Source: Bacillota bacterium
GTDB lineage: Bacteria; Bacillota; Clostridia; Peptostreptococcales; Anaerovoracaceae
Reading direction: 5' to 3'
NCBI GenBank assembly: GCA_017557505.1
Contig: JAFYYP010000015.1
Location: 1-43,505 of the forward strand
Length of the DNA: 43,505 nucleotides
In this document: positions 16,317-23,293 of the stretch, one piece after another
Layout of the letters: each line of letters opens with the position of its first letter
Position numbering within the stretch: the stretch's first letter is position 1
The notes under the pieces: generated by a model
What the model was told of the DNA's origin: nothing
What the model saw: only the letters and a program-made list of their open reading frames with translations
Databases searched by the model: none
Translations under genes and position numbers: made by a program

Positions 16317-18080
16317 TTACACCTTGATCGTCACATTGTTCAGCCGCATGGCGGACGTGTACGTGACTTCCTTCGCCAGGTTCATGGTCAGGCGCAGACC
16401 GATGTTGGCCGTGGGGTCGTCGTCGGTGAGGTAGCGGAAGCGCTCCTTGGGATCGAACGGCCGGCAGTTGTCGCGAATGATGAGCGTGACCCCATCAGCC
16501 TCCTTGTACAGCGCGCGCAGGTCGATCGAATGCGGTTTGCCGTCTTTGAATCCGTGCTGGATGATGTTCGTGACCATTTCTTCCGCCGCAAGGCCGAGCC
16601 GGCTGGCCGTCTTGTGATCCACGCCTCTGCCTTCGCAGAACACGATGATCTCCTCGGACGCCGCGACTGCGCCTTCCAGATCTGTAACAGTTTGTGCGTA
16701 TTCGTTCTCCGGCGCGATGCCGAAACCCTCTTCGAGCATCAGCAGGTCGTCAGAACTGCTGATCTTTCTGCGGTTCACGGCCATGATGAAGACCGGGATG
16801 AGGCAGACTGTCAGGACGTGCGCGAGGGAGATCCCCGCGTACAGGCCGCCTGTGCTGAAACGTTCGGCCAGGATGGAGACCGCAGCGGCGGTGAGCACTA
16901 CGTCCTCGGCGACGTAGACCATGTTGGCCCAGAAGACCCTGCCGGTCACCTGCAGATAGTCCGCGAACAGGATGCAGAACCCCTGGAACAGTAAGCCCGC
17001 GGCGTACCAGCGCACGCTGAGCGTACCGGCCGGAAGCGCGTCGGCGTTGCTGCCCAGATACAGTTTCGCGACGAAAGGCGCCAGGGCGAGCAGGGCCAGC
17101 GAAAGCAGCCCGACGAACATCAGCTCGAGGCGGCAGGCGGTGCGCGTGACCCGCTTCAGCGCCTCCTTGTTCTCCTCGCCGTAATACAGCGACGTGACGA
17201 GCATGAAGGACTGCGCGAGCCCCATGACGACGGCGTTCGTCATGTAGTTGATGTTCGACTGCACGGAAAAACCAGCGACCGCGACGGCTGCGATCGCCGC
17301 GGCTGTCCGGTTGATGAAGATGCCGCGGATCGAAGACGTCACGCGGCTGACCCCCTTGGGCAGCCCTTTTCGAGTAATGTCGAACAGGCCTCTCCAGTCC
17401 AGCCCGCGGACGGAAAAGCGGAAAATGATGTCTTTCTTGATGAAATGGTGCATCAGGACGAGCGTGCCTGCATAGTAGCTGATCGTAGTCACGAGCGCGA
17501 TCTCCGCGAGTCCCGCGTGGAGTACGGAAACGCAGAAGAGGTCGCCCGCGATGTTGACAGCGGTCATGACAGCCGTTGCGGTGACGATGCGCCTGCGGTC
17601 GCTGTCGAGCGGCATGATGGAGGAGAGCAGTTTCGTCGCAGTGATGGCCGGAAGGCCCAGAACGTAGAACAGCAGATATTCCTTGGCGTTCACGAACATC
17701 TCCGTGCCGCTTTCGGCGCCGAGCAGGGTCGTGATCGGGTCGATGAACGCCACGATGAGGATCATGACGGCGATCGATAATCCGATGCCTACGATGCGGG
17801 TGACGGAGAAGAGCCGGCAGGCCTGCTCGCGGTCATTCCTGCCGAGCGCCCGGGCGCAGCCGTTCGACATGCCGCTGCCCAGGATGCTGCCTGTGATCGC
17901 GAAGATGAAGTTCAGCGGATTGACGAGCCCGAACGCCGCGACGCACTGCGTGTCCATGACGTTGCCGATGACCAGGCCGTCGACGAGCGTGCCGAGCGAG
18001 GACGTGAGCATGGAAAGGAAAAAAGCGCCGAACGAATTCAGCAGCAGATCCCTGATCAGTTTGTCTTCCTTTTGCCACAT
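16317..18080 (-). CDS. MATE-family transporter fused to a HATPase (RsbW/SpoIIAB-like) domain
   Basis: The 587-residue protein has two parts. Residues 1-445 form a MATE-type antiporter with about 12 membrane helices, beginning NSFGAFFLSMLTSSLGTLVDG. After a soluble linker, residues about 460-587 show a GHKL ATPase of the anti-sigma serine-kinase type: N-box EEMVTNIIQHGF with the E-x3-N pair at E501/N505 as in SpoIIAB E46/N50, G1-like RDNCRPFDP (D537), and G2-like NIGLRL. The usual Gly after the G1 Asp-Asn is Cys. MATE proteins export drugs or metabolites by Na+ or H+ antiport; the added domain suggests ATP- or partner-controlled activity (inference). GGAG precedes ATG 18080, and the promoter lies in the divergent region shared with the helicase gene. 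Confidence 0.9.
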   Translation of the reverse strand: MWQKEDKLIRDLLLNSFGAFFLSMLTSSLGTLVDGLVIGNVMDTQCVAAFGLVNPLNFIFAITGSILGSGMSNGCARALGRNDREQACRLFSVTRIVGIGLSIAVMILIVAFIDPITTLLGAESGTEMFVNAKEYLLFYVLGLPAITATKLLSSIMPLDSDRRRIVTATAVMTAVNIAGDLFCVSVLHAGLAEIALVTTISYYAGTLVLMHHFIKKDIIFRFSVRGLDWRGLFDITRKGLPKGVSRVTSSIRGIFINRTAAAIAAVAVAGFSVQSNINYMTNAVVMGLAQSFMLVTSLYYGEENKEALKRVTRTACRLELMFVGLLSLALLALAPFVAKLYLGSNADALPAGTLSVRWYAAGLLFQGFCILFADYLQVTGRVFWANMVYVAEDVVLTAAAVSILAERFSTGGLYAGISLAHVLTVCLIPVFIMAVNRRKISSSDDLLMLEEGFGIAPENEYAQTVTDLEGAVAASEEIIVFCEGRGVDHKTASRLGLAAEEMVTNIIQHGFKDGKPHSIDLRALYKEADGVTLIIRDNCRPFDPKERFRYLTDDDPTANIGLRLTMNLAKEVTYTSAMRLNNVTIKV

Positions 18081-20360: not shown

Positions 20361-21212
20361 ATGAATAAGACCGTTAACGTATCCTGCGTGCAGATGATGC
20401 CGCAGGCCGCGGACTATGAATACAATTTGGCGAAGATGGAGCGTTTTGTGCAGCAGATCTGCGATGCGCGGCCCGAGACTGATCTGATCGTCTTCCCGGA
20501 ACTGTGCACGACGGGCTACGTCTGCACGAATGAGGAGTTCGATCGCATGACCCGCACAGCTGCCGAAGATCCGTCCATCCGAAGGCTCGGCGCCCTGGCG
20601 AAACGGTACGGCGTGGTGATCGTCTACGGCTTCTCCGAGCGCGATCCGGACGATGCGGCCATCCTGTACAACGCGGCTGCGGTTATCGGCAAGGACGGCT
20701 CGCTGCAGGGCACGTACCGCAAGGTGCATCCCTTCGATACGGAGAAGAACTGGTGCGCAGCAGGAAGCGGGTATCCGCTGTTCGAGGCGGATTTCGGTAA
20801 ATTCGGGGTCATGATCTGCTGGGACACCGCGTTTCCGGAGGTCGCACGCACCTACGCGCTGAAAGGCGCGGAACTGCTCGTCGTCTGCACGAACTGGGAG
20901 ATCACGGAGTCAAACGACTGGCCCATGGATACGGCTGCGGACTGGGATCTCGTGACCCGCGCAAGGGCTTTCGATAACACGCTGCACCTGGTATCCGCCA
21001 ACCGCGTCGGCAGCGACAGGGGACTCGGTTTCTTCGGACATAGCAACATCATCGATCCCGTCGGAAACGTGATCGAAGCGCTGAACGATCCTGTCGAAGG
21101 CGTGATCTTTGCCTCTTTGGACCTCGGATTGACGGAAAAGAGAAGAAAAGAATACTACACGATCCTGGAAGACCGCCGGCCGGATACTTACGGCTTGCTC
21201 GTAAAGGAATAA
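20361..21212 (+). CDS. Carbon-nitrogen hydrolase (nitrilase superfamily)
   Basis: A 283-residue single-domain nitrilase-fold hydrolase. The catalytic triad is visible: E47 (FPELCTTGY), K121 (YRKVHPFD) and C153 (MICWDTAFPE). Such enzymes hydrolyse amides, carbamoyl groups or nitriles; the substrate is not determinable. AGGAGG lies 6-8 bases before ATG 20361, and only 12 bases separate it from the helicase gene, so it may share the SOS-type promoter. Its 3' end overlaps the convergent reverse transcriptase gene by 25 bases. Confidence 0.9.
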   Translation: MNKTVNVSCVQMMPQAADYEYNLAKMERFVQQICDARPETDLIVFPELCTTGYVCTNEEFDRMTRTAAEDPSIRRLGALAKRYGVVIVYGFSERDPDDAAILYNAAAVIGKDGSLQGTYRKVHPFDTEKNWCAAGSGYPLFEADFGKFGVMICWDTAFPEVARTYALKGAELLVVCTNWEITESNDWPMDTAADWDLVTRARAFDNTLHLVSANRVGSDRGLGFFGHSNIIDPVGNVIEALNDPVEGVIFASLDLGLTEKRRKEYYTILEDRRPDTYGLLVKE

Positions 21213-22393
21213 TATTCGTGCACGAGGCTGCGGTAGCCCAGTTTTTTCAGATCTTCATAGCGGACGTTATACCGCGCTTTCGTGCGCTTGCCGCTGATGA
21301 GGAAGCGGAGGCAGTCCTGCGCGTAGAGATCGATCTCATGCAGGCTGTCCGCCGTGTCGATGACGGAAAAGAACCAGTAACTCCAGGTCAGATCGCTGTC
21401 CGCAGAGTTTTCCAATAATTTGCGGTTGAAGATGCGGATGAAGGCCGCCGCGGCTTTTTCTCCGCTCAGGCCGTTCCTCTGACGCCAGCGCTGCAGGGCT
21501 CTCGCCTTGCGGCGCATTTTTTGTTTGAGTTTATGAACGGTCGCGGGCGCGATGTCGACGCGGCCTTCGCTGCAGAGGAAACCCAGGAACGTCCAGGCTT
21601 CGCCGGGGTCCGCCAGGCTTTCCTTCGAGGGGTTGATCGTAAGGCCTTGACTCTTCAGGAAGGCGTGCAGATACGCGACGTGCGCGTCCCGTTCCTCCTT
21701 CGTGTCCGCGAACAGGATGATATCGTCGGAATACCGCGCGTAGGGGATGCCGGCTTCGCAGAAATGCGCGTCCAGATCCTTTAAATACAGGTTGGCGTAG
21801 AAAGCGGAAAGGGGCGTACCGGCCATGATGCCCTTGCTTTCGCAGATCTCCGCGCTTTTTTCGAGCACGCAGGGTTCTTCCAGAAGACGCTTCAGGAAGG
21901 AGAACAGCTGCGGGTCATCCGCCAGGACCTCCTCCAGCATGGGGAGGAAGCGCTCCACCGGGATGGAGTTGAAATAGTCGTGGATGTCCGCCTTGTAGAC
22001 GAACTTCTGATAGATGCCGTGCGTGCGGGTCAGATACCGCACCGCGTCTTTGGCCGTGCGTCCCGGGCGGAACGAATACAGGGCAGGGGCATATACGCCA
22101 TCGTAGCGGCGCAGCAGCAGCCAGGTCAACATTTTCAGCACGGTGTTCTCTGTTTTCGGATAGATGTATACCGTGCGTTTTTTCTGCGAGCTCATCTTGC
22201 TGATGACTGCTTTTTTCGGCAGCGCAAAAGCGTCTCCCCGTTCGATTTCTTCACATATGGGCAGCCAGCGCTTTTCGTCGATAAACGTGCGCAGCTCCTT
22301 CGCGAAGTTCTTCGGGCAGACCAGAGACGTGCGGTAGGCATAGAAATCTTCCCAACAGCGTTCGTCCTTCAGTTGTTCGAGCAAAGACGGCAA
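21188..22393 (-). CDS. Stand-alone reverse transcriptase (YSDD class, undetermined type)
   Basis: A 401-residue RT. Visible blocks: RT1-2 region (YIYPKTENTVLKML, SFRPGRTAKDAVRYL), RT3 KADIHDYFNSI with catalytic D136, RT4 KGIMAGTPLSAFYANLYL, RT5 YARYSDDIILF with D223-D224, and RT7 FLGF (269-272), then a basic helical thumb-like region. There is no group II maturase or endonuclease domain. Retron hallmarks (NAxxH, VTG) and the DGR-type SQ in RT4 are absent, so it fits a group II-like or 'unknown group' RT, classes that include DRT defence systems (inference). The start is TTG 22393 with GAGGAG 8 bases upstream. A structured segment lies immediately 5', and a coiled-coil protein gene precedes that on the same strand. 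Confidence 0.88.
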   Translation of the reverse strand: MPSLLEQLKDERCWEDFYAYRTSLVCPKNFAKELRTFIDEKRWLPICEEIERGDAFALPKKAVISKMSSQKKRTVYIYPKTENTVLKMLTWLLLRRYDGVYAPALYSFRPGRTAKDAVRYLTRTHGIYQKFVYKADIHDYFNSIPVERFLPMLEEVLADDPQLFSFLKRLLEEPCVLEKSAEICESKGIMAGTPLSAFYANLYLKDLDAHFCEAGIPYARYSDDIILFADTKEERDAHVAYLHAFLKSQGLTINPSKESLADPGEAWTFLGFLCSEGRVDIAPATVHKLKQKMRRKARALQRWRQRNGLSGEKAAAAFIRIFNRKLLENSADSDLTWSYWFFSVIDTADSLHEIDLYAQDCLRFLISGKRTKARYNVRYEDLKKLGYRSLVHEYYSFTSKP

Positions 22394-22412
22394 GAAAAGT
22401 TCTCCTCAATAG

Positions 22413-22560
22413 AAAAAACAGAAAGAGAAGGCATTAAAGCCCGGAAAGTTCCGGGATGTACCGGGCCGTACAGAGACCGGCTGCCTGCGAAGCCGAAAGG
22501 ATTGATTCGAAAGGTCTCTGCCGGGTCCGCCGCAGGCGCAAAGGGCGTTCTCTTTCTGTC
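22413..22560 (-). ncRNA. Candidate structured RNA associated with the reverse transcriptase
   Basis: About 148 bases between the coiled-coil gene and the RT. A 12-bp closing stem pairs 22548-22559 with 22418-22429 (2 more pairs after one mismatch). Inside are an 8-bp stem (22513-22520 with 22471-22478) enclosing a 4-bp hairpin (22491-22494 with 22479-22482), and a 6-bp hairpin (22450-22455 with 22440-22445). A small GUAC hairpin (22468-22470 with 22459-22461) is also possible. The hairpin loop (22483-22489) is perfectly complementary to 22531-22537, a 7-bp pseudoknot. Six U follow the closing stem on the - strand, which supports that orientation; the + strand has only four T. Found by eye, not by folding software or covariation. 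Confidence 0.6.
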
Positions 22561-22578
22561 TTTTGCGGTTTTCGGGGG

Positions 22579-23181
22579 CTATTCGCCCAGGGCAGCTTTC
22601 GTGCGGTTGATGACGTAGCTGCGGGTGTTCCACCAACCCTCATAGTTAGTGTAATAACGCAGATAGGGCAGTCCCTGTTTTCTGCATCTCTCGCGGAGCT
22701 TGACCGCGCTGGAATTGGCGGGCAGCAGTTCGACGACCAGCTTGTCCTCGCCGCCTTTCCTGAAGCGGAAGACCCAGGAACGGTCCGGTCCGCCCCAACC
22801 TGCTTCTTCCGCCAGCTCGTAATCCGCGAACTCCTTGCGGTAGATATCTTCGAAGTAAGCTATAGGAGTCATACCGGAGTTGAACTGGTTGGGTTCGTCG
22901 GGCATTTCATCGCCCCAGGATACGCCGTAGGCGCCGGGCTTGGGTCTGTCCGCGTCTGCTGTGTTCTCGACGATCGTTCCGATGGCTTCTTTATTCTCCT
23001 CGGCGAACTGTTCCGCTTTGGTCTTCAGGGCGTCGATGGCGTCCTTGTTTTCTTCCGCGAACTTCTCCGCTTCGGTCTTCAGCGTCTCGACGGCGTCGGA
23101 CATGTTCTTTGCCAGTTCGTCCAGTTTCAGATCCGGCGCTTTCTCGCTGACTTCTTTCAAGATCTTATCAAAAAGGCCCAT
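22579..23181 (-). CDS. Small coiled-coil protein upstream of the RT, unknown function
   Basis: 200 residues, no signal peptide. Residues 1-75 are charged and helical, with an 18-residue direct repeat (LKTEAEKFAEENKDAID at 34-50 and LKTKAEQFAEENKEAIG at 52-68). A Pro/Gly linker leads to a C-terminal alpha/beta-like domain (about 85-200) rich in aromatics and ending GWWNTRSYVINRTKAAL. The pattern KLVVELL followed by a basic helix and LPYLRYY vaguely recalls Vsr-like nuclease cores, but no catalytic set is evident, so I assign no function. ATG 23181 has GGAAAGGAG 9 bases upstream. It is codirectional with the RT and the structured segment, whose 5' end is 18 bases past its stop. Confidence 0.75.
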   Translation of the reverse strand: MGLFDKILKEVSEKAPDLKLDELAKNMSDAVETLKTEAEKFAEENKDAIDALKTKAEQFAEENKEAIGTIVENTADADRPKPGAYGVSWGDEMPDEPNQFNSGMTPIAYFEDIYRKEFADYELAEEAGWGGPDRSWVFRFRKGGEDKLVVELLPANSSAVKLRERCRKQGLPYLRYYTNYEGWWNTRSYVINRTKAALGE

Positions 23182-23213
23182 AGTGAATGTCTCCTTTCCA
23201 TGGTGTTATCTGC

Positions 23214-23222
23214 AGTATATCA
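23214..23222 (-). promoter_or_regulatory. Extended -10 upstream of the coiled-coil/RT locus
   Basis: On the - strand TGaTATACT lies 33 bases before the start at 23181. No clear -35. It would drive the coiled-coil gene, the structured segment and the RT. Confidence 0.55.
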
Positions 23223-23293
23223 CGGAGTGCGCCGCCGCAAAGCCTTTCATTGAAAATATTTATAAAAATCATAAAAATAATTGATTCTTCTTA

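Follow-up and report, generated by a model that had tools for sequence, protein, structure and literature searches.

The stretch of DNA analyzed here (hereafter the window; 43,505 nucleotides, positions 1 to 43,505 of contig JAFYYP010000015.1, assembly GCA_017557505.1, from a Bacillota bacterium of the family Anaerovoracaceae) carries on its minus strand, all in one direction, an accessory protein gene (22579-23181), a 185-base gap (22394-22578) and a reverse transcriptase (RT) gene (21188-22393). The gap contains the Rfam family RF03026 (RT-5) at 22426-22541 of the minus strand, with a score of 94.2 bits (E 8.5e-18; gathering threshold 45.7), and the match spans the entire Rfam model, positions 1-104 of 104. 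At gathering thresholds, Rfam finds three tRNAs only in the window outside these three parts, and no intron or retron RNA family. The best PADLOC model for the RT is RT_UG26 (PDLC03764; E 1.8e-176, residues 3-398) and the accessory protein matches RTasCOG2852 (PDLC03793; E 1.5e-47, profile positions 13-166 of 167); each match covers nearly the whole profile, and PADLOC files both families under DRT. An earlier sequence-only reading had described three codirectional minus-strand parts here, namely a protein, a structured segment of about 148 bases and an RT with a YSDD motif. Open reading frames (ORFs) and Rfam confirm all three, and the estimated length was close to the 152 nt (22413-22564) obtained when the closing stem is included. 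The main features are as follows.

21188-22393, minus strand: UG26-class RT, 401 amino acids, active site RYSDD at residues 220-224, TTG start with GAGGAG before it
22413-22564, minus strand: RT-5 noncoding RNA (ncRNA) with its closing stem, 152 nt, U tract at the end, predicted transcript ends, from Rfam and covariation
22579-23181, minus strand: accessory RTasCOG2852, 200 amino acids, ATG start, N-terminal MGLFDK motif, linker, C-terminal domain at about 85-200
21194-23252, no strand assigned: approximate extent of the inserted cassette, between nitrilase-like and LysR-type genes, from congener alignments

Comparative sequence analysis shows that these parts recur together, that the RNA keeps a conserved pseudoknotted fold and that it is able to sit apart from the RT gene. 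We lean toward reading the locus as a UG26 system, in which a UG-family RT, its own ncRNA RT-5 and the accessory RTasCOG2852 make up a movable cassette; the released RNA would be bound in trans and a template within it copied in the service of phage defense. Because all three parts are already catalogued (as UG26, RTasCOG2852 and RT-5), this is not a new type of system; the suggestion in the sequence-only reading of a new RT-ncRNA system thus holds as to an RT-ncRNA system with an accessory and fails as to novelty. The UG26 RT and RTasCOG2852 classes reportedly originate with Mestre et al. 2022, and the RT-5 RNA family is said to come from Weinberg et al. 2017. A literature search on these three names and related ones found no functional study, with most subscription journals lying outside its reach.

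For the RT, the next PADLOC family after RT_UG26 reaches only 3.4e-34; the next-best classes include UG27, UG4, UG17 and Drt9. The Pfam family RVT_1 also matches (E 1.1e-22). Among 104 aligned UG26 RTs, window included, both aspartates of YSDD and Tyr379 are invariant, and Tyr357 is kept in 102. At one locus (L141:1-2697) a single long open frame holds a C-terminal UG26 RT (E 6.1e-114) preceded by an N-terminal region similar to radical-SAM proteins (PF04055, E 9.3e-06, under the cut-off). RT-5 was searched for at this locus and not found, and the long frame may be a fusion or an assembly artifact.

The accessory family is recognized by PDLC03793 in 76 of 84 aligned proteins. An N-terminal motif (M, then G or S, then two hydrophobic residues) starts 72 of the 84 by the pattern used, a variable linker follows, and the C-terminal domain holds the best-kept residues, Arg193 in all 84 and Asn185 and Tyr189 in 83 each. 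The protein had been taken for a coiled coil. Its repeated AEENK-type helix words occur at least twice in only two of the 84 (the window and L032) and are therefore not a family feature; what is conserved is the N-terminal motif and the C-terminal domain. It had also been called unrecognized, which PADLOC contradicts with a catalogued family, and which stands insofar as no confident match came from Pfam, NCBIfam, PHROGs or sequence searches of the PDB.

The stretch 22407-22566 has a folding energy of -63.4 kcal/mol; shuffled versions average -45.1 (z -4.36), and none of 200 was as good. The RNA model was built from five RNAs, and the structure was drawn by hand on the window RNA and then counted over an alignment. 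Of 119 available RNAs (108 from loci selected by their RT and 11 from a search with the RNA model), 100 were used; the 19 left out were mostly near-copies, and also included the weakest RNA (L137). The extended structure has 47 pairs, of which 44 show changes on both sides, and 95.5% of 4529 cells are paired. Its covariation score of 0.498 exceeds those of shuffled (0.198) and slid (0.120 at most) controls. Its elements are listed below.

22548-22564, minus strand: 5′ strand of the closing stem P1, 17 bp with 22413-22429, both-side changes at 17 of 17 pairs, 95.0% of cells paired
22413-22429, minus strand: 3′ strand of P1, leading into the T tract, intrinsic-terminator-like
22531-22537, minus strand: pseudoknot strand GCCUGCG near the 5′ side of the RNA, partner 22483-22489
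22483-22489, minus strand: pseudoknot strand CGCAGGC in the P4 loop, partner 22531-22537, from covariation
22463-22528, minus strand: P2-P3-P4 arm, in which a variable-length stretch separates P3 and P4
22524-22528 with 22463-22467, minus strand: P2, one pair being A-C in the window
22513-22521 with 22470-22478, minus strand: P3, from the covariation alignment
22491-22494 with 22479-22482, minus strand: P4, from the covariation alignment
22440-22455, minus strand: P5 hairpin, both-side changes at 5 of 5 pairs, 97.7-98.9% of cells paired
22430-22439, minus strand: J5/1, the unpaired joint between P5 and P1, with UUYAA; candidate template by position
22460-22471, minus strand: GU-N8-GU, second and weaker candidate template region, overlapping P2 and P3, GU spacing 10

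Covariation thus indicates that RT-5 is closed by a 17-bp stem and holds a 7-bp pseudoknot. All seven pseudoknot pairs show both-side changes, with 98.7-100% of cells paired, and this support is independent of the alignment fit because the pseudoknot was absent from the structure used for fitting. The figures for P1 to P5 lean on that fit, since these stems were wholly or largely in the fitting structure. The printed RF03026 model, 104 positions long, leaves both P1 and the pseudoknot unpaired. A T run of at least five lies in the 3′ part of 77 of the 100 RNAs; a simple terminator scan of the window did not list P1 and its T tract. In UUYAA (RNA positions 141-145, unpaired) UU is kept in 99 of 100 RNAs, the middle pyrimidine in 95 and AA in 98-99, while the unpaired GU at positions 118-119 is identical in all 100, as are one G-U and one C-G pair at the base of P3. 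The invariant G-U wobble there joins RNA positions 58 and 109 (window 22521 and 22470), and pairing alone is an insufficient explanation for it.

How regularly do the three parts occur together? Of 297 genomes searched in the same order, 124 had some match at E ≤0.001. Five loci, the window's included, were stronger than 1e-100, and all five consist of accessory, RT-5 and RT in one direction; the four weaker RT loci examined all carry group II intron RNA domains. A scan of a species-genome collection with the five-RT alignment yielded at least 530 relatives, the best 80 of which were used. Their titles name Clostridia or unplaced Bacillota, and 38 of them name a ruminant compartment or host, or 65 counting the isolate code RUG, which we take to denote rumen. 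A further 30 loci (34 places, 30 kept, the distant L112 among them) came from a phylum-wide scan, in which 2 of 398 genomes hold a UG26 RT, one being the window's own, and from a scan of one bacterial family, in which 32 of 299 do. The resulting 115 loci (85 + 30) were selected by RT alone. The sequence-only reading had left open whether the trio recurs in other genomes, and it does: RT-5 is found at 108 of the 115 (81/85, five of which built the model, and 27/30) and the accessory at 100 (79/85 and 21/30, with L112 marginal only). Removal of the seven near-copies (L033 lies on the same contig as L005) leaves RT-5 at 101 and the accessory at 93 of 108.

RT-5 is missed at L042, L104 and L119, which have little or no sequence before the RT, and at L095, L099, L112 and L141. 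The accessory is missed at 15 loci, of which L042, L074, L104, L119 and L128 have fewer than 200 bases before the RT frame, while at L141 the RT frame itself extends upstream; the other nine are taken up below. On a tree of RTs restricted to UG26 relatives the accessory states are clustered, requiring 15 changes against 29.9 when shuffled. Based on the recurrence counts and these tree states, the core of the system consists of RT and RNA, with the accessory usual but dispensable. L095 and L099 are nested among trio-bearing relatives on this tree.

The RNA model alone was searched in 391 genomes of the class, and 12 were positive, window included. In the other eleven, the RT adjoins the RNA in nine and lies apart from it in two. 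At one of these (L177:3566-6119) an oppositely oriented 326-codon ORF occupies the 1.2 kb between RNA and RT, and at the other (L178:3190-11816) the distance is 7.3 kb with seven ORFs between, of which six are oppositely oriented. Beside neither RT did the same RNA search give a second RT-5 copy. With oppositely oriented ORFs between RNA and RT, RT-5 can therefore hardly be a mere leader, and these arrangements argue that it can be transcribed alone and act in trans. At L126 (715-2691) the order is RNA-accessory-RT, not accessory-RNA-RT. The accessory was found at five of the eleven RNA-model loci, within short flanks. L177 and L178 belong to one genus (g741), and similar neighbor ORFs flank the RNA in both.

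Congeners reveal the site without its cassette. In one (G271, L166) the alignment to the window breaks off after 21193 and picks up at 23253, the two blocks being separated by 23 bases; in another (G235, L167) it breaks off after 21194 and picks up at 23269, the blocks being separated by 39 bases. In both, the nitrilase-like and LysR-type genes are adjacent with no cassette between them, and the trio lies elsewhere, beside a gene for a 164-aa membrane protein. A third congener (G1342, L170) aligns in an unbroken stretch from inside the RT into LysR, like the window. A reciprocal empty site, looked for in the window genome at the place of the congeners' trio, was not found: the alignment there covers only about 475 bases around the neighbor gene. 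No flanking family is common to more than 8 of 80 loci, and flank lengths vary. The nitrilase-like gene (PF00795; window 20361-21212) lies head-on to the RT gene and shares 25 bases with the end of that gene. As a part of the system it was rejected, since two congeners have the gene without the cassette and the PADLOC model RTasNitrilase is marginal (24.7 bits). Farther away, window 16317-18080 encodes a protein that joins a MatE-type transporter to a histidine-kinase-like ATPase domain (PF13581), a combination that, to our knowledge, is not a common one.

We hypothesize that RT-5, including the terminator-like stem that closes it, would be released as an RNA about 150 nt long and bound in trans by the RT. 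The RT would copy a short template located where the RNA is unpaired, the UUYAA joint between P5 and P1 being the likeliest place. The product would be a single-stranded, probably repetitive cDNA, and priming might be by protein, with the invariant Tyr379, or else Tyr357, as a guess. The accessory would read this cDNA, or its loss on phage attack, and would sense or execute, the outcome being phage defense like that of the characterized DRT systems. The available passages of PMC13174585 describe Class 2 DRTs investigated so far as having cis-encoded ncRNA templates that are copied into repetitive cDNA; a conserved cis-encoded ncRNA near the RT is the feature found here at 108 of 115 loci. By this analogy the UG26 locus is probably a phage-defense system.

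Which segment would serve as the template? By its position 3′ of the stable P5 and before P1, the UUYAA joint appears the best candidate. The GU of GU-N8-GU (RNA positions 108-121) is identical at both places in all 100 RNAs, and the third base agrees in 81, compared with 75 on average in 500 shuffles, none of which was as high (kinship ignored), while the fourth agrees in 66 against 65 shuffled (169 of 500 as high). Taken as a hairpin, this segment would have four pairs, which are kept in 77, 93, 90 and 98 of the 100 RNAs. As a template it was not accepted, as it overlaps the covarying P2 and P3 and is also readable as a hairpin. A bolder version, possible though we would sooner doubt it, is that UG26 and RT-5 form a bacterial telomerase-like enzyme, in which a pseudoknotted RNA with a stable stem-loop boundary just 5′ of a short template (UUYAA or GU-N8-GU) would direct self-primed short tandem DNA repeats, to be bound by a nuclease-fold sensor or effector devoid of its catalytic residues. 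Were this true, template, boundary stem-loop and covarying pseudoknot would be combined in one RNA of about 150 nt.

The favored UG26 defense reading has rivals. RT-5 lies directly 5′ of the RT gene at most loci and ends in a terminator-like stem, followed by a T run at the frequency given above, as would befit a cis-acting leader (an attenuator or riboswitch-like terminator) for RT expression rather than a template or cofactor. Such a role is unlikely, given that L177 and L178 keep the RNA despite the oppositely oriented ORFs before the RT, with no second copy found beside it, that the RNA of L126 precedes the accessory gene instead of the RT, and that the conserved pseudoknot and P5 exceed what termination needs. 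The accessory, for its part, could be an active COG2852 (very-short-patch-repair-like) nuclease effector released or guided by cDNA. The name of its PADLOC family suggests this, as does an alignment of its profile with ten DUF559 proteins (50 columns, P 0.015), in which Glu151, kept in 72 of 84, meets DUF559 Glu65. The match is weak, with 2 of 100 column-shuffled controls as high, and in its register only the Glu has a counterpart: Asp67 and His71 meet no conserved residue, residues 134-150, the expected place of Asp54, hold no conserved acidic residue among the 84, and the best-kept Asn185, Tyr189 and Arg193 are not acidic. PF04480 (DUF559) is absent from the six Pfam families that match the window accessory at E up to 1 and from the matches listed for the 84 aligned proteins (best 25 of 70). 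We therefore hold a nuclease effector very unlikely; because the C-terminal domain is weakly nuclease-fold-like without the usual catalytic motif, the accessory may bind nucleic acid rather than cut it. As for the RT, the notion of an ordinary group II intron maturase or retron, which draws on group II intron RTs being the best profile match among solved structures, has a negligible chance. The maturase and retron St85 models score far below their cut-offs (108.5 vs 300 and 58.2 vs 235 bits), in line with the sequence-only reading, the window holds no intron or retron RNA family at gathering thresholds, and the E-value of RT_UG26 is about 142 orders of magnitude better than that of the PADLOC family ranked second.

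The system might also serve a purpose other than phage defense, such as a housekeeping or stress role, or be a selfish RT element. We regard this as rather unlikely. It would accord with the setting among housekeeping-like genes, with the frequency in one bacterial family (32/299 genomes) and with a cassette site that differs between congeners. It accords less well with the lack of a widely shared integrase or other neighbor (best flanking family at 8 of 80 loci); the thin spread in the phylum, at two genomes in 398, fits an optional system, and in the literature passages seen the UG relatives of known function are antiviral. Several observations nonetheless weigh against the favored reading itself. 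The locus is known here from sequence alone. The window neighbors look like housekeeping genes, and searches for relatives in viral contigs, plasmids and phages were negative at the limits applied, so that there is no defense-island support here; UG26 is reported in cold-seep viruses in the available part of PMC10504277, which those searches did not reproduce. Among solved structures the RT profile places group II intron RTs (2e-34) and a retron RT (4.7e-14) above Drt2 (9e-13), which with Drt3a (1.8e-10) outranks DRT1, AbiK and UG15 (1.4e-7 to 3.8e-7). Membership of UG26 in the Class 2 DRTs is an assumption. Nine loci without the accessory have at least 1.3 kb upstream (L086, L095, L099, L121, L122, L131, L132, L135 and L136), so either the accessory can at times be dispensed with or something else takes its place, and at L095 and L099, with open RT frames, neither RT-5 nor the accessory was detected in nearly 6 kb upstream. 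Regarding the template, 80 of 100 RNAs have a direct repeat of at least 3 nt across J5/1 and P1, compared with 74 on average, and up to 84, in shuffles. With kinship ignored, the mean repeat length is 3.33 compared with 3.14 shuffled (8 of 2000 shuffles as high), and repeats of at least 4 nt occur in 35 of 100 RNAs against 28 shuffled, with shuffles up to 40. For co-change of RNA positions 140 and 148 the tree offers only three independent pairs on supported branches, of which one or two agreed and mostly none opposed.

To the catalogued parts the present work adds their joined description, a covariation-tested pseudoknotted fold, the RNA as a separate unit, an empty site and limits on the accessory. 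UG26 is frequent in some gut Clostridia, and its link to RT-5 and a specific accessory, together with the covariation-tested RNA fold and a minimal movable unit some 2 kb long, provides a construct ready for testing. If a cDNA product were shown, ncRNA-templated immune DNA synthesis would extend to another RT class, and one could ask whether the telomerase-like RNA plan of template, boundary stem and pseudoknot arose or persisted in bacteria.

How does the locus compare with known systems? No family-level difference was found between the window trio and the PADLOC pair UG26 and RTasCOG2852, and the RNA matches the whole RF03026 model, whose printed form differs from the fold proposed here in lacking P1 and pseudoknot pairing. 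DRT2 (UG2), in the source passages seen, makes ncRNA-templated repetitive cDNA, the same as proposed for UG26, and the window RT resembles that of DRT2 only distantly (PADLOC E 2.3e-18). We know of no accessory protein for DRT2. DRT9 (UG28) shares with UG26 an ncRNA immediately upstream of the RT, and the portions of PMC12483538 consulted give its template as U-rich residues 123-126, near the 3′-proximal SL6. Unlike UG26 as proposed, DRT9 has a poly-dA product, a different RNA and a SLATT association according to the same portions, and its RT is distant (Drt9, PADLOC E 3e-23). A further likeness in layout is to DRT10, whose RT class, UG17, is among the next-best PADLOC families of the UG26 RT. 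As described in the available parts of PMC12632851, DRT10 is likewise tripartite, with a 137-nt ncRNA, a small accessory and an RT. Its accessory is a SLATT protein, a predicted membrane-pore former, whereas that of UG26 is RTasCOG2852; its RNA precedes the accessory, as at L126 and in contrast to the usual UG26 order of accessory, RNA and RT; and its template loop is poorly conserved, whereas UUYAA is nearly invariant. In position, UUYAA resembles the templates described for DRT9 and DRT10 in these passages (PMC12483538, PMC12632851).

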